Under the pieces are notes generated by a model. The model ran no database searches. It had not been told where the DNA came from and worked only from the letters and a program-made list of their open reading frames with translations. Positions 6,890-64,000 of a DNA stretch of 64,000 bases are shown one piece after another (positions within the stretch are counted from its first letter, which is position 1; the number at the start of each line of letters is the position of its first letter). The stretch comes from Malania oleifera (lineage: Eukaryota > Streptophyta > Magnoliopsida > Santalales > Ximeniaceae), in NCBI RefSeq assembly GCF_029873635.1, contig NC_080419.1:66851323-66915322 (forward strand), in the 5' to 3' direction. The position numbers and the translations under genes were made by a program.

Positions 6890-7225
6890 GACTGGTCAAC
6901 CGACTGACCAAAGCATATTGAGATTCGCCAACCAACTGAAAAGAATAAAAAGATTGAATAACTAGTCAATTGACTGACCAAAACATATTGGGATTGGCCA
7001 GCCGACTGACAAGAATACAATGATTGAATAACTGCCCAGCCAACTAACAGTTTGCACTGATATCAGTCAACTGACTGACACACCCAGCCGATTGACATTT
7101 TTGAACGTGGTCGAGCCAGCCGACTGACAAATTAATTGAATTAATTTCTGGGAGACAAAAAGGTCTCAGCCCCCTGTCTAGCTGACTGACCCTGTGAAAT
7201 ACACTACCTAGTCACCTATCGAGCC
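6890..7225 (+). repeat. GTCGAC-like palindrome cluster in LTR U3
   Basis: About nine degenerate copies of a CAGTCGACTG-type unit, for example 'actggtcaaccgactgacc', 'gccagccgactgac', 'cagtcaactgactgac', 'cagccgattgac' and 'gagccagccgactgac'. They lie 140-470 bp upstream of the TATA box at 7363. Confidence 0.75.
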
Positions 7226-7362
7226 GACTAACTCCATGGGAATTTGAATTTTTAAACCTAAATGGGAAAATTCTAAAAATCAGTTTTCCATATGTGAACG
7301 TCATAAAAACTTGGTGGACACACCAAGTAACTTGGGGAACAAGGAAACTAATCCTAAAAAGT

Positions 7363-7371
7363 CTATAAATA
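7363..7371 (+). promoter_or_regulatory. LTR TATA box
   Basis: CTATAAATA lies downstream of the palindrome cluster in the solo LTR 6381-8562. The same string occupies the equivalent place in the other LTRs (21532-21540, 23296-23304 on +; 18172-18180, 40897-40905, 44499-44507 on -). Confidence 0.65.
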
Positions 7372-8740
7372 CTCACTTAATCCCAGGAAATTAATAACCA
7401 AGCAAATATACAACACTTGCATTCAATCTCTCAATCTCTCTCAAAGCTCTCCATTGCTCATACTCTTGCTGGGGAAATCATCTAAATTGTTGCTAAAACA
7501 TCAACCTAAAGTTCTCATACTGATTTTTCTCAATCACAAAAGAACCCTTGGTGATCTCTGCACTTGAGCTTCAATTCTATTTCATATTGATATTTAAATT
7601 CTTGAAGTACATAAGTGCTGAATTTTGTACTAATCTGCTCTATTTTGAGAGTATTCTTGTACGCAGTGTTTACTTCATATCTTTTTTAGTTCTTGGATGA
7701 TTCAAGGTGTTCGGATCGTTCGCTAAGCGTGGGGTATCGCTTAGAGAGGTGCTGCTCTAACCTAATTGAAGGAGTGACCGAGCGAGGGGATATCACTTGG
7801 AGAGGCGGGCTCTAGCCTACTAAAGGAGTGTGTAAATGGTGTTGTTCCACCCAATAAAGGAACTAGTTTTAGTGAATCCTTTATTGGTTTTCCAAAGGCG
7901 AGGACGTAGGCTAGGGATAAGCCAAACCTCATAAAAACTGTGGTCTCACTCTCTCTTTCCCTTGCTCTTTATTTTCAGCACATATTAACTACATAAATGA
8001 TTTAATTTCTTAATCATACATACTACGTAAATTTGGAAATTATGTAAACTTAAAGTTTAATTTTGATTTGGTATTACGAAAACCGAAAAGGAGTACGTTA
8101 GTTGATCAATACTTTGTGGAAACCTCAAAGGGAGTACGTTGATTGGTTAACACCCAAAGATAAATTAACTAAGAGTTTATTTGAATTCTGAATTTTGGGA
8201 AGAGTGTGGATGTTTTGTTGAATTTCAAATTGAGAGACAAATTACATTCTCTACAGGGCTTACAAATTCATATACGCAGGGCTACAAGCAAACTAACCAT
8301 TTTTGAGTTATTGGAAAAGATAAAAGAATTGCATAGAATATCTTGATTAAATATTTTGTGGATTTGATTGATTGAGTTTTTATTTTGTGTGTTTGTGGAT
8401 TGTATAAAAAGAATTAAGCTTTTATTGTGTGATTTCTAAATCAACAAGAAATCAAGAATTCGTTAAAAGAATTAAATTAAGTTAAAGAATTCATAAAAAA
8501 GTTTTAAAAGGAATTTTAATAACCCAATTCACCCCTCTCTTGAGACTACACCCTTGTTTTCAATATTCATAAAGAACCATAGGTGTACTTGTCATAAGTA
8601 ATCATGAGATACATACAAAAAAAAAAACAAACTGAGATACAACTCAAAAAATAACAAATTGATTTACATATATATATAGCAATGAGATGCACAACAAAAA
8701 TTGATATAGCACTGAAATACTCATCATAGAAACAAAAACA

Positions 8741-9892
8741 TCAAGCATCAACATCAGCTACATCATCATGTCCAGAACTTTCATCATCTCCTTCATCTTC
8801 CTCTTCCTCGAATTCCTCATCAAATGCATCGTCACTAGGATAACGTGAGGAACTAGCCTGATACTGTTCCAAACAGCTATGTCTTTGGAGGTATTACTTT
8901 CCTTAAGATACTGAAGTCCTAAGTGCACATCACAACTAAAAGTAGTAAACTGATGATGAAATGGTATGAACCATGAAGGAGCATCAATCTGAGGTTCTGG
9001 CTGTTGATTAGGAGATGGAGCTTGCTCAGGTGCTTGCCTAGGTGGTTTTCTTCCTCTCCGAAACAACCCTGCTAATGTTTCTTATATCCCATCTGTTTCA
9101 TGGTCATAAAGTTGTAAAGATCATACCGAGTTCTCCTTATGAAAAACTCATTTGGATTGATGATACTAAAATGAGAAAATAGGATATTAAGGATGCCGCC
9201 ATATGGAAGAGTAACTCATCGTGCTTCCAATCTTGTCCACATCCATTTCAGAATCAAACTGTAGAAGACAATGTTTCTTCCCTCTCAAAAGGCACCACAT
9301 GACAAAACAGTCCATGTATGACATGTAATTGTGTGATCTGGTCTGAGGTACAATGTTGTATGTTATGATTTTCTGAAGTATCTGTGCTTGAAGGTTCAAC
9401 TATGTATACTTAGGAGGATTCCTAAATTGATCTGGTGCTACGACCATAATTAATGGTAAAAACTCCTTGAGGGTGAATCCTTGATCCATGATCCAAGTAC
9501 GTGAGAATACAAGACACTCAAAAGCACCTTGGTCAATACGAAGAATGGGGGCCAAGGTTGTTAACGATATTCTTTGTCCTCTTACTTTAGTAGTGAGTAC
9601 TGATTGACTTTGAACCATATTCGCATAAAAGATCTCAACAAAATTTGGGTATAGGCCCTTCGCTTGATAAACCACAAGATTTTTCCAACCTATCACCCTA
9701 AACATTGGTAGAATATTTAGAAATTCTACCGCAAAGAAAGTTGTGTCGATGATCTTACCAAGTATTGGATCGGTTGCTCGAAGATGATTCCTACATCTTT
9801 GTTTGGCATAAGGAGCAACAAGTCATTGGTCAATGTTGTCTTCTTCTTGTCCAGAGGTAGGACCTCGATTTGCTGCCTTTGGTTCGTGGCAT
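8741..9892 (-). pseudogene. Extra ORF of Copia element 1 (plant transposon-associated protein), frameshifted
   Basis: Between RNase H and the 3' LTR lies a decayed ORF of about 380 codons, from ATG at 9892 to the stop at 8741-8743. Recognisable blocks are VIGWKNLVVYQAKGLYP.., SRTWIMDQGFTLKEFLP, then YxxYxDCFVMWCLLRGKK and a glutamate/aspartate-rich tail (..EFEEEEDEGDD..). Homologous ORFs occur in the same place in element 2 (20292-25703, interrupted) and element 4 (62404-63354). The pattern resembles the 'putative plant transposon protein' family (PF20167-like), a match I recall but cannot test. It is not a viral envelope: I see no signal peptide or membrane anchor. Function unknown. Confidence 0.65.
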
Positions 9893-10309
9893 TTTGATGA
9901 ACAAACGCAATAGAAAACCCTAGAAATCCGTATGGGGAAGATGTGGGAAGATGATTTCCACTCTTTTAATGAAAGATTTTGGGTTTATAAGCAAAGAGAT
10001 AGAAGAAAATGAGTTTGGGTGTGTTAAGGAGCCAATTCCAGTTGACTGGAATGAAAGAAATTAGGGTTTTGTGCTCAAAATATATTAAGCCCTGATGATC
10101 CAGTTGACTAAGGTCTCAGTAGTCAATCACCTAACTGTCAGAGAAACTGAATTCCTACAAGTCAGTGGTCTGTTAGTCGACTGGGGTCATTGAGCTCAGC
10201 CATCTAACTTCCTAAAAAAACTTCAAATTTTCTTCTTATTGTATTCTTTCTAAACCACTTCCCTATTGTGTAATAGGCCAAGTTCTCTTCTTATTGATAT
10301 AAACATATC
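9893..10309 (-). promoter_or_regulatory. pol to extra-ORF spacer with palindromes and TATA-like box
   Basis: In minus orientation the spacer carries CAGTCGACTG-like palindromes: 'ttagtcgactgggg' at about 10171, 'ccagttgacta' at 10091, and the near-perfect TTCCAGTTGACTGGAA at 10036-10051. A TATA-like box (TATAAA, + positions 9984-9989) follows, then the ATG of the extra ORF at 9892. This copies the U3 layout of the LTRs. A role as an internal promoter is my inference. Confidence 0.4.
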
Positions 10310-11700
10310 TTATGGAAGAGGTTTGGTAAAAATATCCGCCCATTGGTCATTTGTATTTATAAATTCAATTATGATATCTTCCTTTTGCACATAATCTCTT
10401 AGAAAATGATGTCTAATGTCTATATGCTTGGTTCTTGAGTGTGATATTGGAATTTTAGAAATGTTTATAGCACTCATATTATCACACTTGATAGGTATAG
10501 CAGAATATTCTAAATTAAAGTCCTTTAATTGTTGCTTCATGTAGAGTGTTTGTGCACAACAACTCCCTGATGCCACATACTCAACTTCAGCAGTAGATAA
10601 GGCTACGAAGTTTTGTTTCTTAGAGAACCAAGATACTAGAGATTGTCCTAGAAAATGACATGTACCACTTCTACCTTTTCTATCAATTTTATATCTAGTG
10701 TAATCGACATATAAATAACTAATCATTTCAAATCCAGTGTCCATAGGATACCAAAGTCCTAAGTCAATAGTACCTATCAAGTATCTTTAAATCCTTTTTA
10801 CGGCTATTTGATGAGATTCCTTATGAGCTTATTAAAACCAGGCACATATGCATACACTAAACATTATATCTAGTCTACCAGCTATCAAGTATAAAAAACT
10901 TCCTATCATACCTCGATAGTATTTTTCATCAACTGGTTTTCCTTTTTCATCCTTATCTAGACTTATGGAGGTACTTATTGGAGTTCCTATAGTTTTGCTA
11001 CTCTTCATGCCAAATTTCTTAAGTGTATCCTTTATATACTTTGATTGATTTATAAAAGTTCCATTCTTGACTTGCTTAATTTGTAATCCTAGAAAGTAAT
11101 TCAGCTTTCCCAGCATACTCATCTCAAACTCATCTTGCATGCATTTTGCAAAATCATTACATAATTCATCATTTGTAGCACCCAATATGATATCATCAAC
11201 ATAAATTTTTATGATAAGCATGACTTTATTTTTGGATTTGATAAATAATGTGCTATTTGTCTTTCCTCTGGAAAATCCATTTTGCAGTAGGAATCCGCTC
11301 AACCTCTCATACCAAGCTTTATGAGCTTGTTTTAACCCATTTAATGCTTTTATTAATCTAAATACATGATCAGGGTTATTTAAATCCTCAAAACCAGGAG
11401 GTTGTGCTACATAAACTTCTTCATTAATAAAGCCATTCAAAAAAGAACTCTTTACGTTCATTTGATATAATTTGAATTCCTTACGAGATGCATAAGCTAA
11501 CAAAATTCTAATGGCTTCCATTCTTGCTACGAGAGAAAAAGTCTCATCATAGTCTATACCTTCTTCTTGATTATATGCTTGAGCCACAAGCCTAGCTTTG
11601 TTTCTTACTACTATTCTATTTACATCTTTTTTATTCCTAAATACCCACTTTGTCAAATTATTAAGTGGTCATCAAGTCCCGGAACTAATTTCCATACTTT
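10310..11700 (-). pseudogene. Copia element 1 reverse transcriptase and RNase H (broken)
   Basis: RT is read from about 11656 to 10832, with KARLVAQAYNQEEGIDYDETFS, the catalytic box YVDDIILGA (about 11210-11185), NYFLGLQIKQ and NGTFINQSKYIKD, all typical of Copia RT. After a short interruption RNase H follows (10780-10310): FVALSTAEVEYVA, DNMSAINI, HIDIRHHFLRD and WADIFTKPLP. The catalytic YVDD is intact, but frameshifts separate RT from RNase H and from integrase, so no full polyprotein can be made. The closest relative here is element 2 (18982-19908). Confidence 0.9.
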
Positions 11701-12136
11701 ATTTCTTTCAAATTGATTTAATTCTTTTTGCATAACCACTAGCCATGAATCATCACTTAGAGCTTCTTCAATGTTCTTAGGTTTATCTTGAGATAAGAAT
11801 GCATAACGATTACATAGATTTTTTAATGAAGATCTAGTAGATACACCTCATGATGGTTCTCCTATGATTTGATCCCTAAGATGATTTCTTACAAATCTCC
11901 ATTCTTTGGGTAACTCAGAATTCTCTCTAGCATCATCATTTGAAGTTAATTCATCTTTCTCTTCTTTCACTTCTATAATTTATAGGTCTTTTGGTTTTTG
12001 AGTGGTTTGAACTTCTTCAACATTTATTGTTTTATTAAATGGATTTTCTTCCTCAAATGTTACATGAATTGATTCCATGAGTTCTTTTGTTATATATTCT
12101 GAATGTTTTACTCTTTAATGCATATCCTAAGAATAT
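11701..12136 (-). pseudogene. Copia element 1 integrase-RT linker, degraded
   Basis: This lies between the integrase block and RT. Short minus-strand frames match Copia linker and RT start (for example the region encoding 'SLKNL..NRYAFLSQDKPKNIEEAL..DDSWLVVM' in pieces), but stops and frameshifts interrupt it. No independent gene is seen. Confidence 0.6.
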
Positions 12137-12930
12137 TCATTCATCTTCTTTTGCATCAAACTTGTCTAAATCATCTTTATCATTTAGTACAAAGCACTTG
12201 CATCCGAATATATGAGAGTAAGCTATGTTAGGCCTTCCACCTTTCCATAGTTCATAGGGAGTCTGGTTTAGGCTTGATCTTATGGATACTCTACTTATTA
12301 CATAGCACGCGATATTTACTGCCTCAACCCAAAAATACTTAGGTAGCTTATGCTTATTGAGCATAGTCCTAGCCATTTCTTGAAGAGTTTTATTCTTTCT
12401 TTCAACTACACCATTTTGTTGGGGAGTTCTAGGTGCTGAAAAATTATGATTTATTCCATGTTCATTACAAAATTTTTCAACTTCGTTGTTATTTAATTCT
12501 CTTCCTTGATCACTCCTAATATTTAAGACACCATATCCTTTTTCATTTTGAAGTCTCTTACACAAATTTATTAACATATTACAAGCTTCATCCTTGGAGG
12601 CTAAAAAGAGTACCCAAGTAAACCTAGTGTAGTCATCAACTATGACAAAAGCATATTACTTTCCTCCTATGCTTTTTGTTCTAGTAGGACCAAATAGGTT
12701 TAAATGAATAAGTTCTAAGGGTCTACTTGTAGAAATATGTTTCTTCTTTTTAAAATTTGTCTTAATTTGCTTCCCAAGTATGCAAGTATCACAAATTTTG
12801 TCTTTTATGAATTTTGTGCTTGGTAAACCTTTGACTAACTTCTTTCTAGATAAGGTTGATAATAATTCCATGCTTACATATCCTAGTCTTCTATGCCAAA
12901 GCCAATTGGCTTCATTCATGGTAGCTAAGC
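12110..12930 (-). pseudogene. Copia element 1 integrase (broken)
   Basis: The zinc-binding start is WHRRLGYVSMELL..CDTCILGK (about 12895-12770). The usual second histidine of the HHCC motif (LGH) is tyrosine here. The core follows with VDDYTRFTWVLF (about 12650-12615), IRSDQGRELNN and GVVERKNKTLQEMARTML, covering the D,D,E residues. The tail FGCKCFVLNDKDDLDKFDAK is standard for Copia integrase. Frame changes near 12600-12660 break it. It cuts and joins cDNA into the host genome in active relatives; this copy cannot. Confidence 0.9.
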
Positions 12931-12956
12931 AAGTAACTTTTTAAGAAATTAGATTT

Positions 12957-13294: not shown

Positions 13295-13299
13295 CCTCA

Positions 13300-15923
13300 T
13301 GTAGACACCCGAAAAATTATAATTATTAAAATAAATAGAAAAGATAATAAATAGAATAGATAAATAAATAATAAGGGAGAAGGGGGAAATTTTGAAAGAA
13401 AGAATAGTAGACCTCGTCGACAATTCTCTTGTCTTCGTCGATGAGTGTTCTTCTAGGGATTGTTGACGAAGTTCAGTCCCTCGTCGACGAAGAGATCTCG
13501 AGTGAGTGAATTTCAAATTTTAAATATCATTGACGAATGTATCCTCTCGTCGATGAAACTCCCTTCTGTGGTTTGTTGATGAATCCTGACTTCTCGTCGA
13601 CGAAGCACATGGCAACATCGTGTATAAAAAGATTGGAGGAAGCTTCTCTTTGAAGAAAACACTTTTTCTTCATTTTATCTCTCTAAAAATGGTTTCCTCT
13701 GCCTTCTCTCTAAGATTCTGGCTCGAATTCAACCTAACTCAGCAAACAAAAACCGCTACTGTGTTATAGGGAAGATTCTGTATACATCTAGCATAGTAGA
13801 TTTCTAAACTGGGCTTTTCAGGAATCACTCCAAAGTTGAGGTAAGGGTTTGCATTCCTAGTTTTTACGGTTTTAAATGTTTATTCGAAGTTTATAGGTTG
13901 AGAAAATGTTGAAATAGTAGGTTATTTGGGGTTTATTTGATTAAACTAGGGTTTTGGATTTAGGATTTGGGTGAGCGCCACAAGTATCATTTTGGGGTTC
14001 TTGTTGGTGTATTTCAAGAAATCAGGTAAGGGAAATATATTAAATCAGGATTTTTGGGGAAATAACCAGTGAAAATGGAAATATTATGTATATATGTATA
14101 TAATTTTCATGTGGGTTCTGAAAAGCCAATCTTTTGAATTGTAAATTTCTGAGCCTAGGGCTATGCTACTAGATATTATTTGTGAAAATGGAAAGTTAAA
14201 ATGGCAGATTTTCTAGTTAATTGTATAAGAGATCAAATATATATTTTCAGTATATGAACGATGATTATGGGTTGGCTTATTTTCAATGAACGTATGAAAT
14301 ATGTTGCTAAATTGTGTGGCATATATAAAATGAAGCTTCTGTGTTAAACTATGGTATATGTATGAGATGCAGGAAATAATGGAAATGTATTGAAAATTAA
14401 AATGTGATATGAATTATTTTGCATGTGTTTGGTAATGTTAAATTACAATGTATGGTTTGAGAACTCCGGTGGACCAGAAAAGGGTACAGTACTGTTGCGG
14501 ATTTGTATGGTAGCGCTAGTGCACCCACACGTATTAAATAAAGTGTGGATACAGGATGGTCGATTGTGTCGGGGAAGGGTAGTGTCCCACTGGAGTCTAG
14601 ACTAGTATGGGAACAGCCAATCGGATCTACAGATTATAGAATGTTGTTGATTTAACTCTAAAGGGCCGACCAGGGTTAGTCCAGCCTTCGGGCCGCACAA
14701 CCCATCATGGAGCGGAAGCATGACTAGGATTTATCATCGATATAAAGGGTTCTAAACACATTATTGTAAGTTTAACCATGGATAATATGGGAATAATGGA
14801 TATGGAAATGGAAGTTATGGAAGCAATGGATATAAGATCAGCAGACGGAAATGACATGAAAACAGAATATGTGAAAATAGACATGGATATAGAAAAAGAT
14901 TATGAATATGTGACACATGAATATAGAATATGAAAGTGAATGTAATGAATGACACAGAGATAACAACATAAAGAATAATGTAGTAAAGTATTATCAGTAC
15001 TAAATATAGTAGTATTAAATGTATTTGAGGTGAAGTATGCACTCCACCTGAGGACTTGCTGAGAATGGCGAGTGCCTTGATAGGTATCAGATGTAGCTAT
15101 GGGCTGCATAACGTGTTAGGGCAGAGCAAAACTACTTGTATAGGCAGGTAATATTCCCTATTCTCGGGAACTTCTACCAGTAAAACTTTGTGTGAATGTG
15201 TGAGTACGAGATAAACTAACAACCTAAGGGCTTACTAAGTAAGGTAAGTGTCCTAATATGCTTCAGTTGTGACCATAGGTTTCTTAAGGTATTAGAGCAG
15301 AGGGGTGCTACTTGTATGGGCAGGTAATCACCCCTATCCTTGGGAACTCTCGTTGGTAAAATACCTTACATGTGTTTGAGTAGGAATAGAGAATGATTTC
15401 ATAACTATGGTTTCATTTGAAAATAATGAATATACATATATGTTTCATAACTATGGTTTCATTTGAAAATAATGAATATACATATATGTTGTACTTTAAC
15501 CTCATAATTGTCACACGCTGATTTAATGTATTCCAGCCTTACTGAGATGTGTCTTACTCGATAGTTGAACTTTATCTTTTTCAAGACCTTCAAGTGATCG
15601 AGCTTAGAGAGCTCGGGGCTAGTATATAGCATTTTTGAAGGAAAAATAGGGTATAAATTTTGGTTATAATTTTGGGGTTGTAATATATTTTTGTGAATAA
15701 TGGATGTTGGTTTATACTTTTGAGGTTGTATAGGTGTAGAAACTCTGGTATATTATTGAGATGTTGTTATTGTTTCTACTGCGTAGTTGATATTGAGCTA
15801 GGTACGGGTAATAGAACACGTGACACCTGGGCCCCACTTGGCGGGTTCGGGGTGTCACAAGGTGGTATCAAAGGTGTGTTTCAATAACTCTCTAGAACCT
15901 AGTTTAGGGTTTGGGGCGTTACA
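13300..15923 (+). mobile_element. Solo LTR of a different family, nested in element 1 gag-protease linker (TSD cctca)
   Basis: The ends are TGTAGACACCC..GGGGCGTTACA, flanked by the 5-bp repeat cctca at 13295-13299 and 15924-15928. Removing it rejoins the gag tail and protease of the host element. The TATA box TATAAAAA is at 13623-13630, downstream of TCGTCGACGA palindromes (13408-13605). It contains two internal duplications (15050-15200 with 15240-15390; 15394-15440 with 15441-15489). The string 'tggtatcaaaggtg' near 15863 resembles a tRNA-Met primer site but lies inside the LTR by the TSD. The terminal sequence suggests a Gypsy family; no coding domain is present to prove it. Confidence 0.85.
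13400..13610 (+). repeat. TCGTCGACGA palindrome cluster in U3
   Basis: Units include 'ctcgtcgacaattc', 'ttcgtcgatgag', 'gttgacgaag', 'ctcgtcgacgaagag', 'cattgacgaatg', 'ctcgtcgatgaa', 'gttgatgaat' and 'ctcgtcgacgaag'. They alternate in orientation and end about 20 bp before the TATA box at 13623. Confidence 0.75.
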
Positions 15924-16605: not shown

Positions 16606-17010
16606 TGTTGGCCTAACTAGGCTTTTTAATCGTGTTTTGATGATAACAAATGAAGATGTTTTAACATGTCTTTGTTGAGTGACTTTATATCAGGTATACA
16701 TAAACTCAACACTTACATTTGTCATGGAAGCAAGTTGGAAATCAAAGACAAATCAAGAGAAAGCTTCACTGAGTATTTAAAGACAAATGAAAAAGCTTAA
16801 AGAACAAAAGGGACTTGAAGTCGAGAGGATCATCAAGAGACTTGAAGATTTAGTACTCAAATGTCATATTTAGAAAAGTTGTTTGTAAGTACTTCCTATC
16901 AAATATAATTTAGAAAATATGAAGCTTTTAGGGGAAATACATATTTAGAAAAGTTGTTTGTAAGTTTTCTCAATCAACGAACCTTTGGTGATCTCTATAC
17001 TTGAGCTTCA
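16606..17010 (+). mobile_element. Family A LTR, 5' end, internally deleted
   Basis: Starts TGTTGGCCTAACTAGG, then 'ttttgatgataacaaa', as in the other family A LTRs. The U3 palindrome cluster and TATA box are missing. Leader-like sequence ('cctttggtgatctct..acttgagcttca', also seen near 7545 and 21725) continues to about 17010. There it fuses with an LTR in the opposite orientation. Confidence 0.65.
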
Positions 17011-18981
17011 TAATTTCTTTATACCTTCTTTAATTAATTCTTTATCGACTTATTTTGATTTCAGGGACCACTGATGCAGGATTTATTTTTAATAACAAGT
17101 ACAGCAAAAAACTAATTAAGTTATAACCTCTTTGAATGAGTATGAGTATACCAAATTGAATGCTTTGTGAATTTTAAAAAAAATTCTTTCAACAATTTAA
17201 TTCAACCAACCAAGATAACCAAGACAAGATTCACAATATAGAATAATTCTAGCAATGCTTCCAAGATTCAGCAATTGAGTAAGTTAATATTGAGTTTAAG
17301 TATATAGCTGATAAATGCCCTATATTAATAGACTTGATTTCTCAATATGAATCATAATTGAAATTTCCAACCATTCTTCCAAAACTTAGAATTTAAACAA
17401 ACCACTTTCAATTAATTAATGAGTCTTGGGTGTTAATCAATCAACGTACTCCCTTATGGTTTCCGCAATAAGTATTGATCAACCAACGTACTCCCTTTTG
17501 GTTTCCGCAATCCCAATATTAATTTTCAGCTTATTTAATATCCAATCCATGTAGTTTATATGAGTAGAAAAATAAATATCCAACCATGCAATTTATATGA
17601 GCAGAAAATTAAATGAGAGTTAGGGAAGAGAGTGACACCGTGAGTCTTACGAGATTCGGCTATCCCCATCTACGTCCTTGCCTTAGGCAACACACCCAAG
17701 GATTCTCTATTCCACTCCTTTACGGGTAGGAGCAACCTTACACACTCCTTTAATGGGTAGGAGCAACCTTACAATCCCTCCTTCAATAGGATAGAGTCCT
17801 CCACTCCAAGCGATACCCCACGCTTGGTCCAATCAATGATTCAAAAACTTGAACCGTCTACAAAAATAAAACAAATTCGTACAAAGACACTCTCTACAAG
17901 AGCTGATTAGTACAACAATAAAGCACAAATATGTACTTCAATTCAAAATAACAATAGAGAGAACTTAAAGCTTTAGAAGTATATCACCGTGAGCTTCTTT
18001 CTTGATGGAAAGAATTTAGTATATGCTCAAAGATTTGTGCGAATTTCACAACAAAACTCAGTAGAGAACTTCAGCAGGTATGTGAGCAAGAGAGCCTTGA
18101 AAGTATTGTGAGCAAGAAAGCTTTGATTGTTGTGTATTGCTTGATATTTTCAAAAACTTTATCTTGGGGGGTATTTATAGATGTAAAAAGGTTAATTTCG
18201 TGTTCCCTGAATGACTTGGAGTGTTTCCCAAGTTTTCATAACGAATACTTTTTAAAAACTTAATTTTAGAAACTTCCTATTAACTTTAAAATTTGAATTT
18301 TCGAAGAGTCAGTCGACTGGATCACGAAGGGTCAGTCGCCTGGGTCATTAAAAACACTGAAAATTCAAACGTAGTATGGTGTTTGTCGACTAGTTTGTCA
18401 AGAGTCAGTCACCTGGGTCCTCTCGGGTTTTCCCAAATTCATTCTGTATAAGTGTCTATCGCCTGGGTCATCCATGTCAATCGCCTGGACAGACAACTTT
18501 TCTGATTTTCAAATTTATTTCCAAATTCTTTTGTGCTCTTGTGTTTTCCCCAAAGTAATTTTAGACTTTTGAAAAATATTTTTTGAGATTTTTCAAAATA
18601 TGGTCTCTAAGTCAATGATTTTCCTAATAAGCTTCAAATCCAACCATATCATCATTTGAATGAAGTACTTACATAGAGACTCTCTTAAGACATAAAAATA
18701 TTCTAAGCTTGGAGTCTTCATGCTTGTCATTTGCTAAGTCCATCTTACCTTTAAGCTTCAATTCTCTAAGCTTTCATCAAGTCATCTTTGGAATTCATGC
18801 CTTCATGTCCTTTAAGCTTTCATTTCCTTTTCATGTAGTCTTGCAATGAGCTTCATGATTACTTGAACTTGAGTTTAAAAAACCTAATTCCTAAAGTATC
18901 ATCACTTTCACCAAAACATGTTAAATTACCGTTGATTTGTTATCATCAAAATAAGATTAGTAAGCCATGTTAGGCCAACAA
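17011..18981 (-). mobile_element. Family A LTR, minus orientation, facing the 16606 LTR
   Basis: Its minus-strand start is TGTTGGCCTAACATGG at 18981. Palindromes lie at 18305-18500, a TATA box at 18172-18180 (read on minus) and the conserved R/U5 block at about 17640-17690. Its 3' terminal block (C-tract and CTCTTGGG) is missing because the left side joins the plus LTR at about 17010. Flanks at the outer ends are ttatc (16601-16605) and atatc (18982-18986), a weak 4-of-5 match. Confidence 0.7.
18300..18505 (-). repeat. CAGTCGACTG palindrome cluster
   Basis: Five or more units such as 'agtcagtcgactggatc', 'gtcagtcgcctgggtc', 'gtcgactagt', 'gtcagtcacctgggtc' and 'caatcgcctggac'. They lie about 125-325 bp upstream (minus strand) of the TATA box at 18172-18180. 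Confidence 0.7.
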
Positions 18982-19908: not shown

Positions 19909-20291
19909 TAAGAAAGTGTTCAAGAATTTAAGTGTTTATGGACAAAATCTTGAGTCATTCAAATTTTCAAGACTTCGGGTGACCAAGGTTATGGGTCAGG
20001 TGACCGAATGCTGACTATGTTCGAAATTCTGATCTCCAGTAGCATTTTGGGCAACCGAACGAAATTTCTAGGTGACCGAACTTCGTAGATATAAATGTAT
20101 TCTTTCACGAAAAGCCCTAATTTTTCAGAACTCCAGTCGCCTGAACCCTTATTTTCTCTCACCCGAAGCCTCAACCATTCATCTTCGAGCCCTCTCCCAC
20201 CTAATTTTGCTCCAAAACATCTGATCAAAGCTTAAATCTTGCCATTTTCCTTCAGCTTTCTGAGTTTTTCTCAACTTTCACCATTGAAATC
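19909..20291 (+). promoter_or_regulatory. pol to extra-ORF spacer with palindrome-like repeats and TATA-like box
   Basis: Units related to the LTR palindromes occur: 'cttcgggtgaccaagg' (19973), 'gtcaggtgaccgaatg', 'gggcaaccgaacg', 'aggtgaccgaacttcg' and 'ccagtcgcctgaac' (20133). A TATA-like TATAAAT lies at 20090-20096, about 200 bp before the ATG of the extra ORF at 20292. Element 1 has the same layout at 9893-10309. An internal promoter is inferred, not shown. Confidence 0.4.
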
Positions 20292-20716: not shown

Positions 20717-21199
20717 TGTTGGCCTAACAAGGCTTATAAATCTTATTTTGATGATAACAAAGCAAGGAAATTTAACATGTTTTGGTTAAAGTGATGATGT
20801 TTCAGGAATCAAGTATTAGAGTTTAAGATAAAGTGATCACAAGTGTTATGAAAGCCTATATTCTAAAGACATGTGGTCAAAAGAAAGCTCAAATGATCAA
20901 AGAAAGACAAATCTTATGAAAGCTTAAAGAATATTGAAGCTCTTAAGTCAAGATGGAATCAAAGAAAGACATACATAAAGACTTTGTGTTTAGAAAGTTT
21001 TTAAGTCTTAAGAAAGTCTTATGTAAGTACTTCAATTAAAAGTCAATATGGATGCTTTGAAGCTTATTAAGATAAATTATTGACTTAGAGACCAAATTTT
21101 GAAAAACCCTAGAAAGTATATTCAAAAGACTCGATGATTTGGCAAGTAAAAGCTTACAAAAGTTGTGGAAACAAGCATAAAAGCATGAATTTTTATCTG

Positions 21200-21410
21200 T
21201 CTAGGCGACTGACCCATTCTGGTCAGGCAACTAACATTTATGATGAATTAATTCTGAGAAAATATAATAGGCCTAGTCGACTGACCCAAGCAACTGACTC
21301 CAAGTCCAATCGACTCGCCCAGGCGACTGACCTCATTCTGACTTTGATATTTCATTAAAATTTAAAGTCCATGCGACTGATCTTGATGAGCCCAGTCAAC
21401 TGAACTTCGT
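21200..21410 (+). repeat. CAGTCGACTG/GGCGACTGAC cluster
   Basis: Units include 'ctaggcgactgaccc', 'tcaggcaactaac', 'cctagtcgactgaccc', 'caatcgactcgcc', 'caggcgactgacc', 'atgcgactgatc' and 'cagtcaactgaac'. The cluster lies about 125-330 bp upstream of the TATA box at 21532. Confidence 0.7.
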
Positions 21411-22589
21411 AATGACTATTTTTAACAGTGAATAAAAGTTTCCAAATTAGATTTCTTGGACTCCAATCTATATAAAAACTCGGGAAACACTCCAAGAAAC
21501 TTGGGCAACACAAAATAGATGTTTTCTAAGTCTATAAATACATAGAAAACCAAAAGATTTCACATACCAAGAATTACAATCAAAAAATCAAAGCTATATT
21601 GCTCTCACTCTTCAAAAGTTCTCTTGCTCACATATTCTGGCTGAAGTATTACTGAATTTTCCCGGATACAATCACATGGTTCTTGTGTTCTTACTAAGAA
21701 CTTTCAATCCAAAGAAGAACCCGGTGATTAATTTCTTAAGCTTCAAATTCATTCTTCATTGATATTTAAATTGAAGTATATTAGTTGTGCTTAATCTTGT
21801 ACTAATTAGCTATGTTTTTAAAGTGTCTTTGTACACAAGAGTTGTTCTTATTTCTCGTTGTTTTGATAGCTCAGGATTGTTGAATCGTTGGATTACCAAG
21901 CATGGGGTATCACTTAGAGAGGAGGGCTCCATCCTACTTGAAGGAGTGTGTAAAAGGTTTGCTTTGCTTGGTTAAAGAAGTGGTATAGTGTAATCCTTGG
22001 GTGGAGTACCTAAGGCGAGGACGTCGGCGGGTATAGCCAAACCTCATAAAAATATCGATGTTACTCTCTTCCCTATTCTTTTTAAATTTTAGCACATATA
22101 AACTGCGTGGATGCTTATTTAAATTTCTAGAAATTATTTTGTGTTTGGAAATTGCAGAAACCTTAAAAAGGGGAGTATGTAAATTGAATCTTGTAGAAAC
22201 TTTCTGTTTGCTTTTTAAGTCCGATCCCTGTTTTGATGCTGACAAAGCACAAGTTACTTATGTGTGTTTTTAAGTACTTGAACAGGTTTACTATTTAACA
22301 CACACATAAGGCAAAAGGGAAAATGGAAACCAAAAGACTTAAAGCTTACTTCAACTTGTGCATTCCATGGAGTGAAGAGCAAAAGAAGAAGACATTTTGT
22401 TTTTAGTTGTATTGCATTTAATTTTTATTATTTGATCTGTAATGATGCATGCATTTGCATGATATGGATGAAAGCTCAGAACGACCGTAGATATACCCTA
22501 GGGACCAACACACTTCATAGAAAACCTTTTTCTTAACAACTAAATCATACAAAAATGTTTAAATTGGTTAGGGTCAAAATTGGGGCAAT

Positions 22590-23215
22590 TCGGTGGACCG
22601 ATGTTGGATTTTTGGTTTAGTTAAAGAGTCTCGGTCAACCAAACCCTTATGTACTAAATGACTCGGTTGACCGAACCTGCCACGTGAGGCATGTGCTGTA
22701 AAGCCTCGGTCAACCAACACTTTTTATGTTAAATCACCTTAGTCAACCAAACTTGCCTTGAGGGCATAATTGTTATTTTGGCATGCTTGGTCGACCAACC
22801 ACTTGTGCGTAATATTACCATGGTCGAACGAAACACTGTTCACACATGAAGTCAAACTTTGACCTTCACTCGGTTGACCAACCCATCATGCACAAACTAT
22901 CTCGGTCAACCGAACCGGTCCAAAGTCAATATATTGACTTCCCTTGGTCGACCGTTCTGTTTTGAACGTATCTCCTTCGGTCGACGGAACCATAAAGTTT
23001 TTGACACACCAACTACTTCGTCGACCAAACCATGTAGTTCAAGTTAGCATTAGTCGACCAAACCATATGAGTGGTTAACCGAACCCAAGCCATGGTCGAC
23101 CGAACCTACGAAGGGTTCAGAATCGCCCTGAGACGGTCGATCGAACTTACAAAAGTGGTCGACCGAACCTTGACCTGGGTCAACCGAACCTCTCGGGTTC
23201 AAAATTTTTTAAAGG
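22590..23215 (+). repeat. Dense CGGTCGACCG palindrome array
   Basis: About 18 copies in ~625 bp, such as 'ctcggttgaccgaacc', 'ctcggtcaaccaa', 'ttggtcgaccaacc', 'ttcggtcgacggaacc', 'atggtcgaccgaacc' and 'gtggtcgaccgaacc'. The core is GTCGAC; many units show CG changed to TG or CA (GTTGAC, GTCAAC). Spacing varies (about 20-60 bp), so this is not a simple tandem repeat. It lies about 80-700 bp upstream of the TATA box. Confidence 0.85.
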
Positions 23216-23295
23216 CTTAAACGTAATTAACTTTTAATTAAATAATTTAAAAAATACTCAGCGTGTCCCTAATGGTCATATTTTTCAAAAAAAAA

Positions 23296-23304
23296 CTATA
23301 AATA
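23296..23304 (+). promoter_or_regulatory. LTR TATA box (family B)
   Basis: CTATAAATA lies just downstream of the palindrome array, in the place expected for the U3 promoter. Confidence 0.65.
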
Positions 23305-24901
23305 CCCCTTCATTTGCTTTGATTAGCAACTTTGATTATCCATAATTTTCTCTCAAATTTATTTTGGCTTTTCCTAATCAAAGTTCCCCCAAAACCATTT
23401 TTAACGTAAACTTTTTTTTCTTTGGGATAAAATATTTTAAACTCTCTCATACTCTCTTTCAATCTTCCTTTTGAAAAATCTTTTTAGAATAGAGTATTTT
23501 ATTTTGAGCATTTAGTTTATATCCATTGCATATACTCTCACTTAGCACTTAATCTTTGAAAAGCATTTTTGAGAGTATTGTTTAGGTTTTCTCTCGGTTA
23601 TTTTTTTGATAAATATTTTTGGGAGAAAATTATTTATAGCACAAATATTTTCTTAAGCTTAAATTCCTAAATTCTCCAAATATTCTTTATTTGAAAAAAT
23701 ATTTATAGGATAACATAATACTCATTTTTTATATATATTTTCTTTGTGCAAAACTGTTTGAAAAGCAAACCCTCAGTTCTCCTATATTGAAATATATTTT
23801 TTAGGAGAAAATTTTCTTAGGGTCATATCTTTGAGTATTTTATCATACACATCATTTCTCAAAGATTGAAAATATTGTTTTGAGAAAACACCCTTTCTCT
23901 ACTGAGCATAACTCATATCATAAGAGAGTGCATATATTTGAGCTTTTAATGTGTACATCCATGCTTGTATTTAGAAACGTTTTAATATGTACAAAAATGT
24001 TTTAATGTATCAATTGGGTTCATCCCGTAAATTGAACTGGCGAGTCTCAAGCCTCGTAAGTAAGATCGGTTGGATTCATCCCGAAAATTGAATTGGAGAG
24101 TCTCCGCTCTGTAAGGGAGACAAGTTAAGCTCAACCTTGTAATTGAGTTGGGGTTTACCTCGCCCCGTAAGGAGAGGTTGTAACAGCTTCTGCTTCGCTC
24201 GTTTGAAGTGAGCAGGAATAGTATAATCCTTGGGGGGAATGCCCAAGGCGAGGACGTAGGCTGGTTTGGCTAAACCTCGATAACAAATCTGTGTGTCACT
24301 CTCTCTCTAGCTCATTTAAATTTTAGCACTTAAATTTCTATTTATGCATGCTTATTTATTGACTCTTACAATTATTTGCATGCACACATTTTAGTTAAAT
24401 AGGATATGTCGCACGTGTATGTTTGAACGTATATTTTTATTATTTTTCATACATGCTATTATACTGAATGAGATATGAATTATGGTGAATCGGTGTAAAT
24501 GTTTAAATTAGATGAAATATTTTTAAAACCCAATTCACCCCTCCCCCTCTTGGGTTCACACCAATTCCAACACCTTCTAGGGGAGTATGTTCATTATATA
24601 GGTCATTCATCAGCTGCAGTCAAATATAAAAACAAAATCTTGGAGCTTTTGGAATTGTTATATTATCTTGATTGATTGAGTTAACTTATTGAGTTTTTTA
24701 ATTTTGATTGTTGAGCATTAAGAAAGTTGCAAAGCATTCTAGTTCATTCATAAATATTTTAATTAAATTGTATCTTGGTTGAACTTGTGATTTAAAATCA
24801 AATCTTACATGTGTGATTGCTTAAAAGGAGTTCAAAAAAACTTAAAAAAAAAAAAAAAAACCAATTCACCCCCCCTCTTGGGAGTACACCTTAGCTTTTC
24901 A

Positions 24902-25703
24902 AGGGGTTAAACCCCAAGAATTCTTGCCATTAATTTTGACAAATGCATCAACTCAGTATGGTCATCCGCCTTCGTATAGGCAATTCACTCTAGAGGCGAA
25001 GATTTTACACTTGCTCATCACTTATAACATTCTGCCTAAGAGTGGGTCTAGATACCATATCTTTTATTTAGATTGTTTCGTTATGTGGTGTATCTACAAA
25101 GGTAAGCATTTAAATCTTCCTTCCCTGATATTAAAGTGGATGATCACCAAAGAGGAGACTAGACAGATCATACTCCTTTATGGAGGAATTTTAAGCCTAC
25201 TATTTAAGCAACTACATCTAGCTCACACCACAACTCTGTTTGTAAAAAGAAAAACCTTAGATCACTTCACATCAACCACTATTAAGCTCATGGGATATGA
25301 GTTTGCTAGTGCCCTTGGTTGGCTTTCTAAACACTGTCCACAAACAATAAGTAATGTCAATGTTCAAGTGGAAGTAGGAAATGAACCTGCAAAAGAAGCA
25401 CCACCTACTCAGTTTAGTGCTGCTAATGAAGCTCCTACTTGGTTTTCTGCATACCGGTGCAATATGGATGCACAGTATACTACAACTAGTGCAGATATCG
25501 AAGCTAAGTATACCGCACTCCAACAGACCTTCCAAACCAATTTCAGTTCCTTTGATCAGTGACTCTCACACATAGAAAGCAACATGGGTAGGGGTTCCTC
25601 ATCCAGAGGGAAAGCTCCAATTGTAGCGAGTTCCAGTGAAGAGGACAATGATGACGAGGAAGAAGGTAGCTCATCTGGTGACGATGCCGTTGAGGATGAT
25701 TAG
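24902..25703 (+). pseudogene. Extra ORF of element 2, C-terminal part
   Basis: An open stretch of 212 codons lies inside (24924-25562), then frame-shifted sequence runs to the stop at 25701-25703. Blocks are YRQFTLEAKILHLLITYNIL, YHIFYLDCFVMWCIYKGK and HLNLPSLILKWM, then a glutamine/threonine-rich segment and an acidic serine-rich tail (SSSEEDNDDEEEG). It aligns with the C-terminal halves in elements 1 and 4. The layout resembles the plant transposon-associated family PF20167, a recollection only. It has no transmembrane segment and no nuclease motif. Confidence 0.65.
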
Positions 25704-26404: not shown

Positions 26405-26418
26405 AAAAAGGGGGAGAT
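26405..26418 (+). other. Polypurine tract of element 2
   Basis: AAAAAGGGGGAGAT directly precedes the LTR start TGTTGGCC at 26419, the textbook position for plus-strand DNA priming. Confidence 0.85.
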
Positions 26419-43346: not shown

Positions 43347-45437
43347 TGTTGGAATTGGTGTGTTCCCAAAAAAGGGGGGGGGGGGTGAATTGGGTATTTA
43401 AAATTTCCTTGGTTGATTTCGATTTCACAAGCAGTAATACACAACCTAGGGTCTGTCTATGGAATCCCAAATGCGCAGATAAATAAAATGCGCAAAAATT
43501 AAAACATGCGCAACATTCACAGAATAACATACATGTGCAGGAATATAAATTGCGGAAATTTAAAATGCACACAAGATATGTTATCGGGGTTCGACCAATA
43601 CTGCCTACGTCCCCGTCTCTAGCTTGCAAGTTTGGGGATTCCACTACGACTCACTTAACGGGTGGAGCGGCACTGATTACAACCAAGTCAATTAACAGGG
43701 CTGACCTCAACCGACAACTACACCTTACCAGGATAGTGCACCTAGCTTTTCTAACCGGGTCAAAGCCAATCCGGGACTTTTACCAGGGCAAGTCTCTCTC
43801 TTTAGGCCCATGCCTGGAATACAATCAATCAGCCAAAATTTGACATACAAATAAAGTGCTTCACTTTGCTTCTATACAAGCATATATGTACCGATACGTA
43901 CATGTAATAATCAATGCACACCAATAATATAAGAACTATAAGCTCAATGGTGTATGTGTGCAATCAACACTCAAAGTAATGACTATCTCAATTTAAGCAC
44001 GAGAGTGTATTAACAGGTTAATCTTTGAAACTATGTATAGATAAAAAACTCAATCAAGTTTAGGGTTTCAAAGATTTGTACCAAGAGTGATTGGAATATC
44101 TCAAAAATATTTTCTCAATATTAAAGCACAAAGAGATATTCAAATATGAGCTAGTAAAAAATATTTTTGCACACACAAAAATACAAGCCCAAGAGTCTTG
44201 CAATAACAATGCAAAGACTCACTTAGCTATAAGATTTTTCTCACACAAAGATTTATTAAATAAAATCGGGGAAACAACCTTTGTTCTACTCTCAATTTGA
44301 AATCAACAACAATGAAAATAATGAGAGTATCCTAACAAAATATAACAATGTATAAACACTCACAAAACTTGATATCTCAAAAGAATGGTAGTATATGAGT
44401 GTGTAGGGTTTGTATGAAGAAATAGGGTTTAGGAAATTTCAGAGAATTTTGTTGTTAATTAAATCCCTAATCTTGTCTTAATTGAGCAAATGAACTCATA
44501 TTTATAGACATGGGAAGAATTATGACAGTTGGGGACACCGGGGGAATTATTAAAATTGTTTTAAAAGAGTTTAAGAAAATTAATCCTGTTTTAACCCTAA
44601 ATAACCTCGGTAAAAATTGTGCAACTCGAGAGGTTCGGTCGACCATTTTTAAGGTTCAGTCGACTGGGTTGTCCAGTTCGGTTGACTATGATGAATTTGA
44701 ACTGGGAAAATGGTCAACCAGGCTTAAGGCACTTTCAGAACCTTCGAGGTTTCAGTCGACCAGATTGAGTTCGGTTGGCCAAACTTGGGTGTTCGGTCGA
44801 CTGAGTCAATTTTCTACTAAAAGTTCGGTCGACTAGAGCGTTGGGATCTCCCTACGTGTTAGTTCGGTCGACCAGGACGTTGCTGCCTATTTTGAGGTCG
44901 GTCGACCAAAGGGTCAAACCATTGACCCTGGGGAGGTTCGGTCGACCAAAGTGCTCAGAGTGTTGGGGTTCGGTCAACCGAACATGCCAACTTTGTGCAT
45001 TTCGGTCCTATTCTTCTTATGAAGTTGTCCCTATTCTCATGATAATTAATTCTAAAGATTATGGGGGGCTTTTTCATGCAATATTGTGGGACCTATGGTC
45101 AGTCTAAGGTCTTTGAGAGCCGACCGAAAAAAATCCGGCGTCAGTCGACCGAAGGGTGATCCCTAAGGGTCCCGTGGTTCCCTATGGCCTTGAGCTTATA
45201 GTTCCTACCATTCATGACATGCATCAATTATTACAGACCATTCCTACTTTACTAGTACAGACCCAAATTAAACATAATATAAATTATAATAAATTACTAT
45301 TCTGGATTTTTATTCTTTAAGATACCTCATGCCATCATATGATCTTACTAACATGAACCTGCCCACAAACTCAGGGCATAGGTTAGATACTTTGTATTTG
45401 TCATAATCAAAACGATATAAGACTCAAAAAGTTAACA
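43347..45437 (-). mobile_element. Solo LTR, family B, in Copia relic (TSD gagtc)
   Basis: Ends on + are TGTTGGAATTGGTGTG.. and ..AAAAAGTTAACA, flanked by gagtc at 43342-43346 and 45438-45442. On minus: dense palindrome array (44630-45150), TATA box (44499-44507), R/U5 block (about 43575-43625) and a C-tract (about 43373-43386 on +) before ACACCAATTCCAACA. It shares its 3' terminus with the LTR 22205-24572. Confidence 0.9.
44630..45150 (-). repeat. CGGTCGACCG palindrome array
   Basis: About 13 copies on both strands: 'ttcggtcgaccatt', 'ttcagtcgactggg', 'ttcggttgacta', 'tggtcaaccagg', 'ttcagtcgaccag', 'ttcggtcgactgag', 'ttcggtcgaccagg', 'ttcggtcgaccaaag', 'ttcggtcaaccgaac' and 'tcagtcgaccgaag', among others. 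They are mostly spaced 30-60 bp. Confidence 0.85.
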
Positions 45438-50932: not shown

Positions 50933-50937
50933 ATGAT

Positions 50938-53900: not shown

Positions 53901-53938
53901 CCTTGTTGAGATTTGAGCTAAATGGGAAAACTTTGCAG
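50938..53938. other. 3' part of RABA5 intron, no element recognised
   Basis: AT-rich intron sequence with an A-run at about 53281-53295. No coding motif. It ends in a pyrimidine-poor acceptor 'aaaactttgcag' at 53938. Confidence 0.5.
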
Positions 53939-55978: not shown

Positions 55979-56009
<31 letters not shown>

Positions 56010-62271: not shown

Positions 62272-62276
62272 ACACA

Positions 62277-62330
<54 letters not shown>
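62272..62330 (+). repeat. (CA)n(TA)n microsatellite in element 4
   Basis: About 24 CA units then 'tatatata'. At the homologous place in element 1 (8667-8681) there is only 'acatatatatatagc', so the CA tract expanded after the copies separated. Confidence 0.9.
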
Positions 62331-62332
<2 letters not shown>

Positions 62333-62403
62333 GCAATGAAATGCACACAACAAAAACCGATATGTCACTGAAATACTCATCATAGCAAAAAGAAAAAAAA
62401 AAC

Positions 62404-63354
62404 ATCCAGCATTAGCATCAGCTTCATCATCTCCTTCATCTTTCTCTTCCTTAGGTTCCTCATCAAATGCATCATCACTAGGATAACGTGAGGAACTAGC
62501 CTGATACTATTCCAAATGGATAAGTCTTTGATCAATTTAGGAAATACTAGACTGAAGTGAGGTATTACTTTCCTTAAGAGACTGAAGTCCTAAGCACACG
62601 TCACTACTAAAAGTAGTAAACTGGTGATGAAATGGTATGAACCATGAAGGAGCATCAATCTAAGGTTCTAGCTGTTGATCAGGAGGTGGAGCTTGCTTAG
62701 GTACTTGCCTAAGTGGTCTTCTTCCTTTTAGAAACCTACCCTACTCATGTTTCTCATATCCCATCTATTTTAGGGTCGTAGAGTTGAAAAGATCATATCG
62801 AATTCTCTTTATGAACAACTCATTTGGATTTATGATACTAAGATGAGAAAACATGATATTAAGGATGCCAACATATGGAAGAGTAACCCGTCGTGCTTCC
62901 AATCTTGTGCACATCCATTTCAGAATCAAATTGGACAAGTTAAGTTTCTTCCCTTTCAAAAGGCACCACATGACTAAGCAGTCCACGTATGATATGTAAT
63001 CGTGTGATCCGGCTTGGGGTACAATATTGTATATTATGATTTTCTAAAGTATCTGTGCTTGAAGGTTCAATTGTGTATACTCAGGAGGATTCCTAATTTG
63101 ATCTGGTGCTTTGACCATAATTAACGGTAAAAGTTCCTCGGGGGTGAATCTTTGATCCATGATCCAAGTACATGAGAATGCAGGACACTTAAAATCACCT
63201 TAGTCAATATGAAGAATGGGGGCTAAGGTTTGTGATGTTAACAATATTCTTTGTCCTCTTACTTCGGTAGTGAGTACGGATTGACTTTGAACCATATTCA
63301 CATAAAAGATCTTAACGAGATTTGGGTATAGGCCCTTCACTTGATAAACCACAA
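62404..63354 (-). pseudogene. Extra ORF of element 4 (C-terminal two thirds)
   Basis: Homologous to 8741-9670. Conserved pieces are DCLVMWCLLKGKKLNLSNLILKWM and TLPYVGILNIMFSHL (about 62985-62850), then an acidic tail near 62410-62470. The usual TGA at the end is GGA here. Frame breaks are present; the N-terminal part is cut off by the LTR at 63355. Confidence 0.65.
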
Positions 63355-64000
63355 TGTTGGCCTAACAAGGCTTACAATTCTTATTTGGATGATAACAAAT
63401 CACGATAAGTTTGATATGATTTGTTTCAAGTGAAATTCTTTTAGAAAGAAGGCAAAGCTTAAAGAAACTCCAAGCTCAAATGGATGATAAAGCTCATGAT
63501 GAATGTCCTGTACAAAAGGTTCAAGAAAGAAAGATGATCAAAAGCTCAAAGATGATATATGATCATGGAACAACAAGGACTTACTTGAAGATAAAAAGAA
63601 TAGAGTTTTAAGGATGTCTGTATGTAAGTACTTTATGTAAACTTCAATATAAACTGAATTGAAGCTCTTATAAATCAAAAGAATCTAAGAAATATATTTT
63701 TAGAGAAACCCTAAAATATGTTTTAAAATCAAAGTAAATAATGTCTTAAAAGAAGAAAGGTTTTTCAAAAGAATATAAAGTGAAGACTGAAAGCCAGGCG
63801 ACTGCCTATATATGGCAGGCAACTGCCCAATTTTTTAAAAGGAATATCTTAGGAGGCAGTAGGGTGCTAGGTGACTGCCTGAGCACAACCAAACACCTAG
63901 GGGATCAAGCCAGGCGATTGCATGGCTTATGGTAGGCGACTGTCAGCCTTCTGGGTTGTTCAGTTTCCTCTATGGCAGGCGACTGCCACTCGACAAAGGT
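63355..64000 (+). mobile_element. LTR, plus orientation, 5' part, truncated by window end
   Basis: Starts TGTTGGCCTAACAAGG, then 'ggatgataacaaatca', as in the other family A LTRs. It is inserted in the element 4 extra ORF. It carries a palindrome cluster of the GGCAGGCGACTGCC type (63790-63985). TATA and R/U5 lie beyond the window. Confidence 0.85.
63790..63985 (+). repeat. GGCAGGCGACTGCC palindrome cluster
   Basis: Units include 'agccaggcgactgcc', 'ggcaggcaactgccc', 'ctaggtgactgcc', 'gccaggcgattgc', 'ggtaggcgactgtc' and 'ggcaggcgactgcc'. This is a fourth arm variant of the U3 palindromes. Confidence 0.75.

Follow-up and report, generated by a model that had tools for sequence, protein, structure and literature searches.

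Background

Classic copia elements such as Tnt1 and Tto1 carry a few activator repeats in U3, before the TATA box of the long terminal repeat (LTR), and these repeats have been tested experimentally. In the Sireviruses, a genus of Ty1/copia elements, the available portion of Bousios et al. 2010 (PMC2829016), which also mentions Tnt1 box I, describes palindromic repeated motifs (RM boxes) in at least eight copies beginning 200-400 bp after the LTR start, with the signature CGG-CCG, ahead of a conserved TATA box and, a second time, before the env gene; the box of a Vitis (grapevine) element is CGGTCGACCG (Table 3 of that paper). Other hallmarks given there are a polypurine tract (PPT) octamer that lies 10 bp ahead of the LTR and is flanked by an inverted repeat, and a polyC stretch near the LTR end; the text finds no single known factor that fits all RM boxes, and in 2010 left box function open. 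In maize B73, Sireviruses account for 21% of the genome according to the accessible parts of PMC10760457 and PMC5311732. Those of PMC6911290 concern insertion targets rather than LTR boxes, and the titles and abstract openings covered hold nothing on the box feature beyond PMC2829016, PMC5311732 and PMC10760457. Here we analyse clusters of such boxes in 64,000 nucleotides of Malania oleifera (contig NC_080419.1, positions 66,851,323 to 66,915,322), a stretch referred to below as the window and numbered from its first letter.

A first-pass annotation of the window had placed GTCGAC-centred clusters at ten sites, in LTRs of several unrelated families, and knew of no named element that matched them. 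We consider it very probable that nine of the ten loci are Sirevirus RM arrays: homology or hallmarks tie these nine to one copia genus instead of several unrelated families, and the nameless element finds its name in the RM boxes of Table 3 in PMC2829016. The identity of the boxes is already known; their phasing at about 10.5 bp, described below, is new as far as the accessible literature extends.

Box clusters and their carriers

All box, spacing and folding results reported here come from this one 64-kb window. Exact GTCGAC occurs in 28 copies against 2.25 expected, and none of 100 dinucleotide shuffles reaches 28; all ten sites of the first-pass annotation do hold clusters. Within the listed clusters lie 26 of the 28 copies, the other two being at 10176, in a linker array not listed before, and at 47789, elsewhere. 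The common GTCGAC centre holds for seven of the ten clusters; the remaining three (6890, 26845 and 63790) lack an exact copy, and their commonest core is GCCGAC or GGCGAC. A looser scan, for 10-mers that differ at no more than two positions from CAGNCGACTG, CGGNCGACCG or TCGTCGACGA, a consensus drawn from the same data, yields 122 sites where ten shuffles have 44-78. Three sites or more share a 250-bp bin in 17 cases, against 0-2 in the shuffles; one of the 17, bin 56251, falls outside every array. A long perfect palindrome was rejected as the unit, strict palindromes being few: six perfect ones of at least 10 bp are centred on GTCGAC in the window, and CGGTCGACCG has no exact copy in it.

The LTRs that carry the clusters are numbered L1 to L10 along the window (6890, 13400, 18300, 21200, 22590, 26845, 29710, 41030, 44630 and 63790), and four of them lie on the minus strand. 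Arrays in these LTRs hold 4-16 boxes at up to two mismatches, with at least eight in five of the nine Sirevirus arrays (L1, L4, L5, L9, L10) and fewer in the other four. The nine carriers, as we assign them, and their arrays are as follows.

6381..8562, plus strand: Sirevirus solo LTR L1, 2182 bp, from self-comparison, with target-site duplication ATATT and an empty site at 62140-62170
6885..7235, plus strand: RM array of L1, CAGCCGACTG type, with CTATAAATA at 7363
17000..18980, minus strand: Sirevirus LTR L3, 3' end not resolved
18300..18505, minus strand: RM array of L3, with CTATAAATA at 18172 (minus)
20717..22201, plus strand: Sirevirus LTR L4, 3' end cut
21195..21415, plus strand: RM array of L4, with CTATAAATA at 21532
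22205..24901, plus strand: Sirevirus-like LTR L5, with polyC signal
22585..23215, plus strand: RM array of L5, CGGTCGACCG type, 16 boxes at up to two mismatches, with CTATAAATA at 23296
26409..26416, plus strand: terminal PPT AGGGGGAG of L6
26840..27080, plus strand: RM array of L6, CGGGCGACCG type; LTR start at 26419
29700..29900, minus strand: RM fragment of L7; LTR start at 30295
39733..41697, minus strand: Sirevirus solo LTR L8, target-site duplication GAAGA
41025..41200, minus strand: RM array of L8, with CTATAAATA at 40897 (minus)
43347..45437, minus strand: Sirevirus-like solo LTR L9, target-site duplication GACTC, with polyC signal
44625..45160, minus strand: RM array of L9, CGGTCGACCG type, 12 boxes at up to two mismatches, with CTATAAATA at 44499 (minus)
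63785..64000, plus strand: RM array of L10, GGCAGGCGACTGCC type; LTR start at 63355, running off the window

Self-comparison relates L3 to L8 (76% over 1.8 kb) and to L4 (69% over 1.5 kb), L4 to L8 (67% over 1.5 kb), and L1 to L3 (67% over 1.0 kb) and, over shorter stretches, to L4 and L8; L6 and L10 have their LTR start in common. With at most one arm change, starts of the form TGTTGGCC..TTTTGATGATAACAAA are found at 6381, 20717, 26419 and 63355 on the plus strand and at 18980 and 41697 on the minus strand. Profiles built from LTR halves with the arrays left out, which match by construction the LTRs used to build them, also reach L5 (24169-24367, E 3.7e-26; 22224-22332, E 1.9e-4) and L7 (30166-29979, E 1.4e-5), and match L9 marginally (43668-43533, E 0.003). 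The tie by homology or hallmarks is weakest for L9, whose hallmarks are a start arm, a polyC signal and its GACTC duplication; the other solo LTRs with target duplications are L1 (ATATT) and L8 (GAAGA).

Most of the remaining Sirevirus hallmarks are present where the sequence allows them to be assessed. The PPT octamer AGGGGGAG occurs at 26106, 26354 and 26409, the last starting exactly 10 bp before L6; it takes up this position for L6 only, and L1, L8 and L9 are solo LTRs. An inverted repeat, TTTGTCATCATCAAAA / TTTTGATGATAATAAA, flanks the PPT and LTR start of L6 (left arm 26393-26408, right arm 26446-26461, plus strand), and its right arm recurs with 0-2 mismatches in eight of the nine LTRs (L1, L3, L4, L5, L6, L8, L9, L10), L7 having none within two. 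A polyC integrase signal of at least seven C near the LTR end is present in L5, L8 and L9; L1 has only CACCCCTCTC, and the ends of L3, L4, L6, L7 and L10 are missing or not resolved.

Several further features adjoin these carriers. A single junction of ATTGG with TATCAGAGC, at one mismatch and with no array attached, lies at 45912-45899 (minus); this Sirevirus-type primer-binding site (PBS) junction, ATTGGTATCAAAGC, stands about 470 bp upstream of the L9 solo LTR. An array-less Sirevirus LTR at 60864-61721 (minus), preceded at 61721 by the degenerate PPT/LTR junction AGGGAGAG, has lost its middle (equivalent to about 17378-18517), box array and TATA box included. Tandem repeats of about 240 bp occur near L7 (28811-29289 and 30407-30893), and 198-bp tandem repeats directly adjoin L8 (41698-42096).

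Helical phasing and distance to TATA

Centres of neighbouring boxes gather at gaps of 21-23, 32-34, 38-43 and 50-52 bp, and these classes are multiples of about 10.5 bp. For 59 adjacent gaps a cosine mean of 0.51 is obtained at 10.5 bp, against 0.33 at 10 and 0.29 at 11 bp and at most 0.17 at periods of 7-9.75 and 11.25-16 bp, and none of 5000 jittered sets reaches it; for this set the ten of 69 gaps outside 15-60 bp were dropped and seven weak units were removed by hand (two near 10030-10190, one each near L1, L3 and L6, two in L10). Rule-based repeats of the test, free of hand choice, give 0.50 (n=55) and 0.62 (n=19); against a null in which each gap class of a clade is shifted as one block, p is 0.0015 and 0.0011, respectively. 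Picking units by their core only gives 0.38 (n=50; 0 of 10000), and the eleven gaps that separate exact GTCGAC copies score 0.46 (p 0.004). The peak is sharp over all pairs within 110 bp (n=135), at 0.51 for 10.5 bp against -0.06 for 10 and -0.10 for 11 bp, and control tetramers score -0.22. The boxes are not relics of a satellite of about 10 bp, a possibility rejected on finding in-phase spacer 10-mers no closer to the box than out-of-phase ones.

The boxes are followed by a mid-LTR TATA box, CTATAAATA, in six of the nine Sirevirus LTRs (L1, L3, L4, L5, L8, L9). The last box precedes it by 129-133 bp in five of these six scorable cases and by 110 bp, about two turns shorter, in L5. A scan for TATAWA found none in 27051-27400, after the L6 array, nor in 29216-29720, after that of L7, and L10 leaves the window before the TATA position. 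The first-pass annotation had put the centres usually 20-300 bp before TATA; in the odd carrier L2 the distance is 19 bp (see below). Its broader proposal, a dense palindromic U3 element before TATA with several arm types, is borne out.

A neutral origin of the arrays, with slippage or recombination in reverse transcription spreading a unit in U3 and the core reflecting common descent only, would suit several of these observations: nine of the ten loci are tied to one lineage, L1 contains one clear 70-bp tandem duplication, the 22/50 spacing common to L3, L4 and L8 is probably inherited, and the arms vary as CpG transitions would have them vary. However, the spacers are unlike the box unit (6.49 against 6.42 mismatches; they are no decayed boxes), families of differing spacing all keep near multiples of 10.5 bp, and the arrays recur at a second, linker position, so that we regard such an origin as unlikely. 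Descent of all LTRs from one ancestor with one tandem repeat, the outcome that the first-pass annotation had named as refuting its idea, is realised in part: the single ancestor is found for nine of the ten, and the single tandem repeat is not, given spacers unlike the unit.

Box anatomy and arm variation

Among the units picked by their core only (75 from eleven Sirevirus arrays, 5 from L2) the dyad spans about 8-10 bp, with a consensus of about YNGNCGACNR. Arrays differ in the pair at ±4, which is either G-C or A-T and is matched at 0.71 against 0.46 when right-hand letters are dealt across arrays. CGG-CCG forms occur in L5, L6, L9 and partly L7, CAG-CTG in L1, L3, L4, L8 and L10. The arm dinucleotide is CG or one of its transition products (TG, CA, TA) in 30 of 33 arms on each side for L5, L7 and L9. 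The count is 28 of 30 on either side for the 10030 array together with L1, L3, L4, L8 and L10, and 10 of 12 (left) and 11 of 12 (right) for L6 together with the 19970 array; in the flanks these four dinucleotides have a joint share of 0.23. L2 arms fall outside this scheme (0 of 5 on either side). Hence the variants CGG, CAG, TGG and TAG appear largely to fit CpG transitions of CGGTCGACCG, which was probably the ancestral form. As to the methylation-sensitive switch offered in the first-pass annotation, this CpG-type variation suggests no more than past methylation of the sites.

A protein-binding array as the favoured explanation

The reading that we favour, with somewhat better than even confidence, is that the arrays offer a dimeric DNA-binding protein sites in helical phase, from which it acts on the LTR promoter. 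A DNA-binding array is preferred to an RNA structure because box spacing lies near multiples of the 10.5-bp helix turn, and among the options of the first-pass annotation the dimeric transcription-factor site is favoured by this phasing. A symmetric, presumably dimeric, host protein would bind box after box along one face of the helix, and the array would serve as a promoter-proximal enhancer of the LTR promoter, perhaps acting a second time on an internal promoter before the env-position open reading frame (ORF). Spacers would be free to vary as long as helical phase was kept, and in silenced copies CpG methylation would erode the boxes.

Several observations weigh against this reading or parts of it. 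The arrays are kin by descent, hence not independent samples, and come from a single window. A strict palindrome test (core plus three of four outer pairs) finds no unit in three of the ten clusters (18300, 29710 and 41030; L3, L7 and L8) and only a moderate excess at 13400 (reached by 6 of 500 shuffles) and 21200 (reached by 23 of 500). Only the ±4 pair clearly covaries across arrays, the outer pairs showing little symmetry, and against a within-array null of 0.65 its covariation is not significant (p 0.08); the change at ±4 is therefore one at family level, not many independent changes. Asymmetric cores (GGCGAC, GCCGAC and CpG-transition forms) run in the sense direction of the LTR in 29 of 34 cases and antisense in 5, a bias that exceeds what a purely symmetric site needs. 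Phasing is near zero in the two gaps of the L7 array (0.06) and absent at 10.5 bp in L2, and some arrays fold strongly, as detailed below. As for the Sirevirus assignment, the first box lies about 290-515 bp after the LTR start, often past the 200-400 bp of PMC2829016, and no target duplication was seen when one was sought for L5.

Folding bears on the alternative that the boxes act as RNA, forming hairpins in LTR transcripts that feed small interfering RNA (siRNA) production or shield the 3' end. Against 80 control windows of 220 bp, the arrays themselves measuring 161-631 bp, sense folding exceeds the 5% control quantile in five of twelve arrays (L2, L5, L7, L9, L10) and antisense folding in another set of five (L1, L5, L7, L9 and the linker array KA), and the palindromes of maize Sireviruses are reported as small-RNA hotspots in the accessible parts of PMC5311732 and PMC10760457. 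On the other hand, seven of the twelve fail in sense, L3, L4, L6, L8 and the 19970 array fail on both strands, folding of L3 and L8 is no better than that of their own shuffles, and RNA hairpins predict neither the 10.5-bp phasing nor the near-constant distance to TATA. With each strand passing in five of twelve only, a hairpin role common to all arrays is unlikely, and the RNA hairpin suggested at first is not a general one. Arrays of the L5/L9 kind may be siRNA targets, but such targeting could be a consequence of box persistence and not its cause; as an explanation of the arrays we rate RNA action as unlikely, slightly more so than a neutral origin.

Linker arrays and the env-position ORF

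Two arrays beyond the first-pass list, at 10030-10190 (minus) and 19970-20145 (plus), each lie between RNase H and the env-position ORF. The features concerned are the following.

8761..9822, minus strand: remnants of the env-position linker ORF in element A; of three pieces, two resemble PF20167 weakly, below cut-off
10030..10190, minus strand: linker RM array KA, lying between the end of RNase H and the env-position ORF of copia element A, with TATAAA at 9989; unlisted earlier
10310..12655, minus strand: copia pol pieces of element A (RVT_2, integrase core)
19970..20145, plus strand: linker RM array of the L4 element, with TATAAA at 20090, before the last box; unlisted earlier
24846..25562, plus strand: env-position linker ORF upstream of L6, its first part overlapping the L5 end; PF20167 below curated cut-off

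Because TATAWA arises by chance at 0.32 per 150 bp per strand, the linker TATA boxes at 9989 and 20090 are weak evidence of an internal promoter. Four of six env-position ORF pieces (24846, 9403, 9190 and 62768) match PF20167, annotated in Pfam as 'putative plant transposon protein', all below its curated cut-off, and the scan gave no match for the pieces at 8761 and 20388 (20388-20570, in the L4 linker). PF20167 may correspond to this Sirevirus env-position ORF (pieces 24846-25562, plus, and 9190-9822 and 62768-63043, minus). The ORF is named for its position and is at most a putative envelope gene. RVT_2, the copia reverse transcriptase, is clear in element A, and among the 120 relatives listed for it the best is a Ty1/copia reverse transcriptase of Vitis rotundifolia, at 71% identity; in viral contigs, seven pattern matches to copia reverse transcriptase relatives were obtained and none was confirmed.

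An array outside the Sireviruses

The carrier of the 13400 cluster differs from the other nine.

13300..15923, plus strand: non-Sirevirus LTR insertion L2, TGTAGACACCC..GGGTGTCACA, with PBS-like tail and target-site duplication CCTCA
13400..13615, plus strand: seven boxes of L2, TCGTCGACGA type, with TATAAAAA at 13623

L2 starts with TGTAGACACCC, is flanked by its CCTCA duplication, and has neither a Sirevirus inverted-repeat arm within two mismatches nor a match to the LTR-half profiles at E of 10 or below. On these sequence characters L2 is not a Sirevirus, which agrees with the suspicion of the first-pass annotation that this carrier was of another kind. In its tail (15850-15923, plus) a PBS-like AGGTGGTATCAAAG stands between two LTR-like ends, at 15859 and 15923, and by this arrangement L2 is an LTR with PBS and scrap, not a clean solo LTR. 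No internal coding region was seen in L2, and the translated LTR gave six candidates against the protein collection, none at E of 1 or below. By its LTR ends only, L2 might be filed as Ty3/gypsy of Tekay type.

The L2 array is analogous but unphased: its seven TCGTCGACGA-type boxes span about 190 bp, the last 19 bp before TATAAAAA, with gaps of 21, 25, 21, 46, 20 and 47 bp. At 10.5 bp these score 0.06 for adjacent gaps and -0.15 over all pairs, for which the best period is 11.2. Such an array, ending so close to its TATA box in an LTR that has no Sirevirus arm or profile match, could reflect convergence of two superfamilies on one factor site, or their common use of it. That interpretation is doubtful in our view: the L2 arms differ (TCG..CGA), its spacing is out of phase at 10.5 bp, it is a single copy, and by our own estimate a common 6-bp self-complementary core, here chosen post hoc, arises by chance about once in 64. 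It is likewise improbable that a phased array for one plant dimer drives both the LTR and an internal env-position promoter while a second-superfamily LTR has independently built a GTCGAC-core array. Repeated TCGTCGACGA also occurs in 84 stretches of viral contigs, compared by GC content and motif counts only; those with at least four copies are 64-71% GC, and three AT-richer ones have two copies each.

Other features of the window

The segment 29215-29678 recurs at 32926-33389. A pirin-like fragment, 94% identical over 97% of its length, places the host close to Malania oleifera. A 449-amino-acid open frame with RVT_1 at 35407-36756 (minus), fairly intact relative to its surroundings, is presumably, as a guess only, of long interspersed nuclear element (LINE) type.

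Comparison with known systems

If the favoured reading is true, helical phasing would replace the loose label 'regulatory or siRNA' by a claim open to test, that of proteins arrayed along one face of the DNA. Sireviruses are abundant in plants, and any species in which they are annotated allows a simple genome-wide test. The activator repeats of Tnt1 and Tto1 resemble the window boxes in being short repeated sites before the LTR TATA box, and differ in their few copies and unrelated sequence. The palindromes of the maize Sireviruses Opie and Ji, as presented in the accessible parts of PMC5311732 and PMC10760457, likewise form a palindrome-rich cis-region of a Sirevirus LTR, but their box is CACCGGACNNNGTCCGGTG, different from those in the window, and the small-RNA hotspots are reported for the maize palindromes. 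The closest counterpart is provided by the Sirevirus RM boxes of PMC2829016, with which the window arrays share palindromic units in many copies, a place before TATA in the upper half of a long LTR and again before the env position, the accompanying PPT octamer, inverted repeat and polyC, and a core as in the Vitis box. With respect to that description, the window adds GGCGAC and GCCGAC cores, frequent CAG-CTG in place of CGG-CCG, arrays tending further into the LTR and, where the available portion of the paper makes no mention of phasing, boxes phased at about 10.5 bp.

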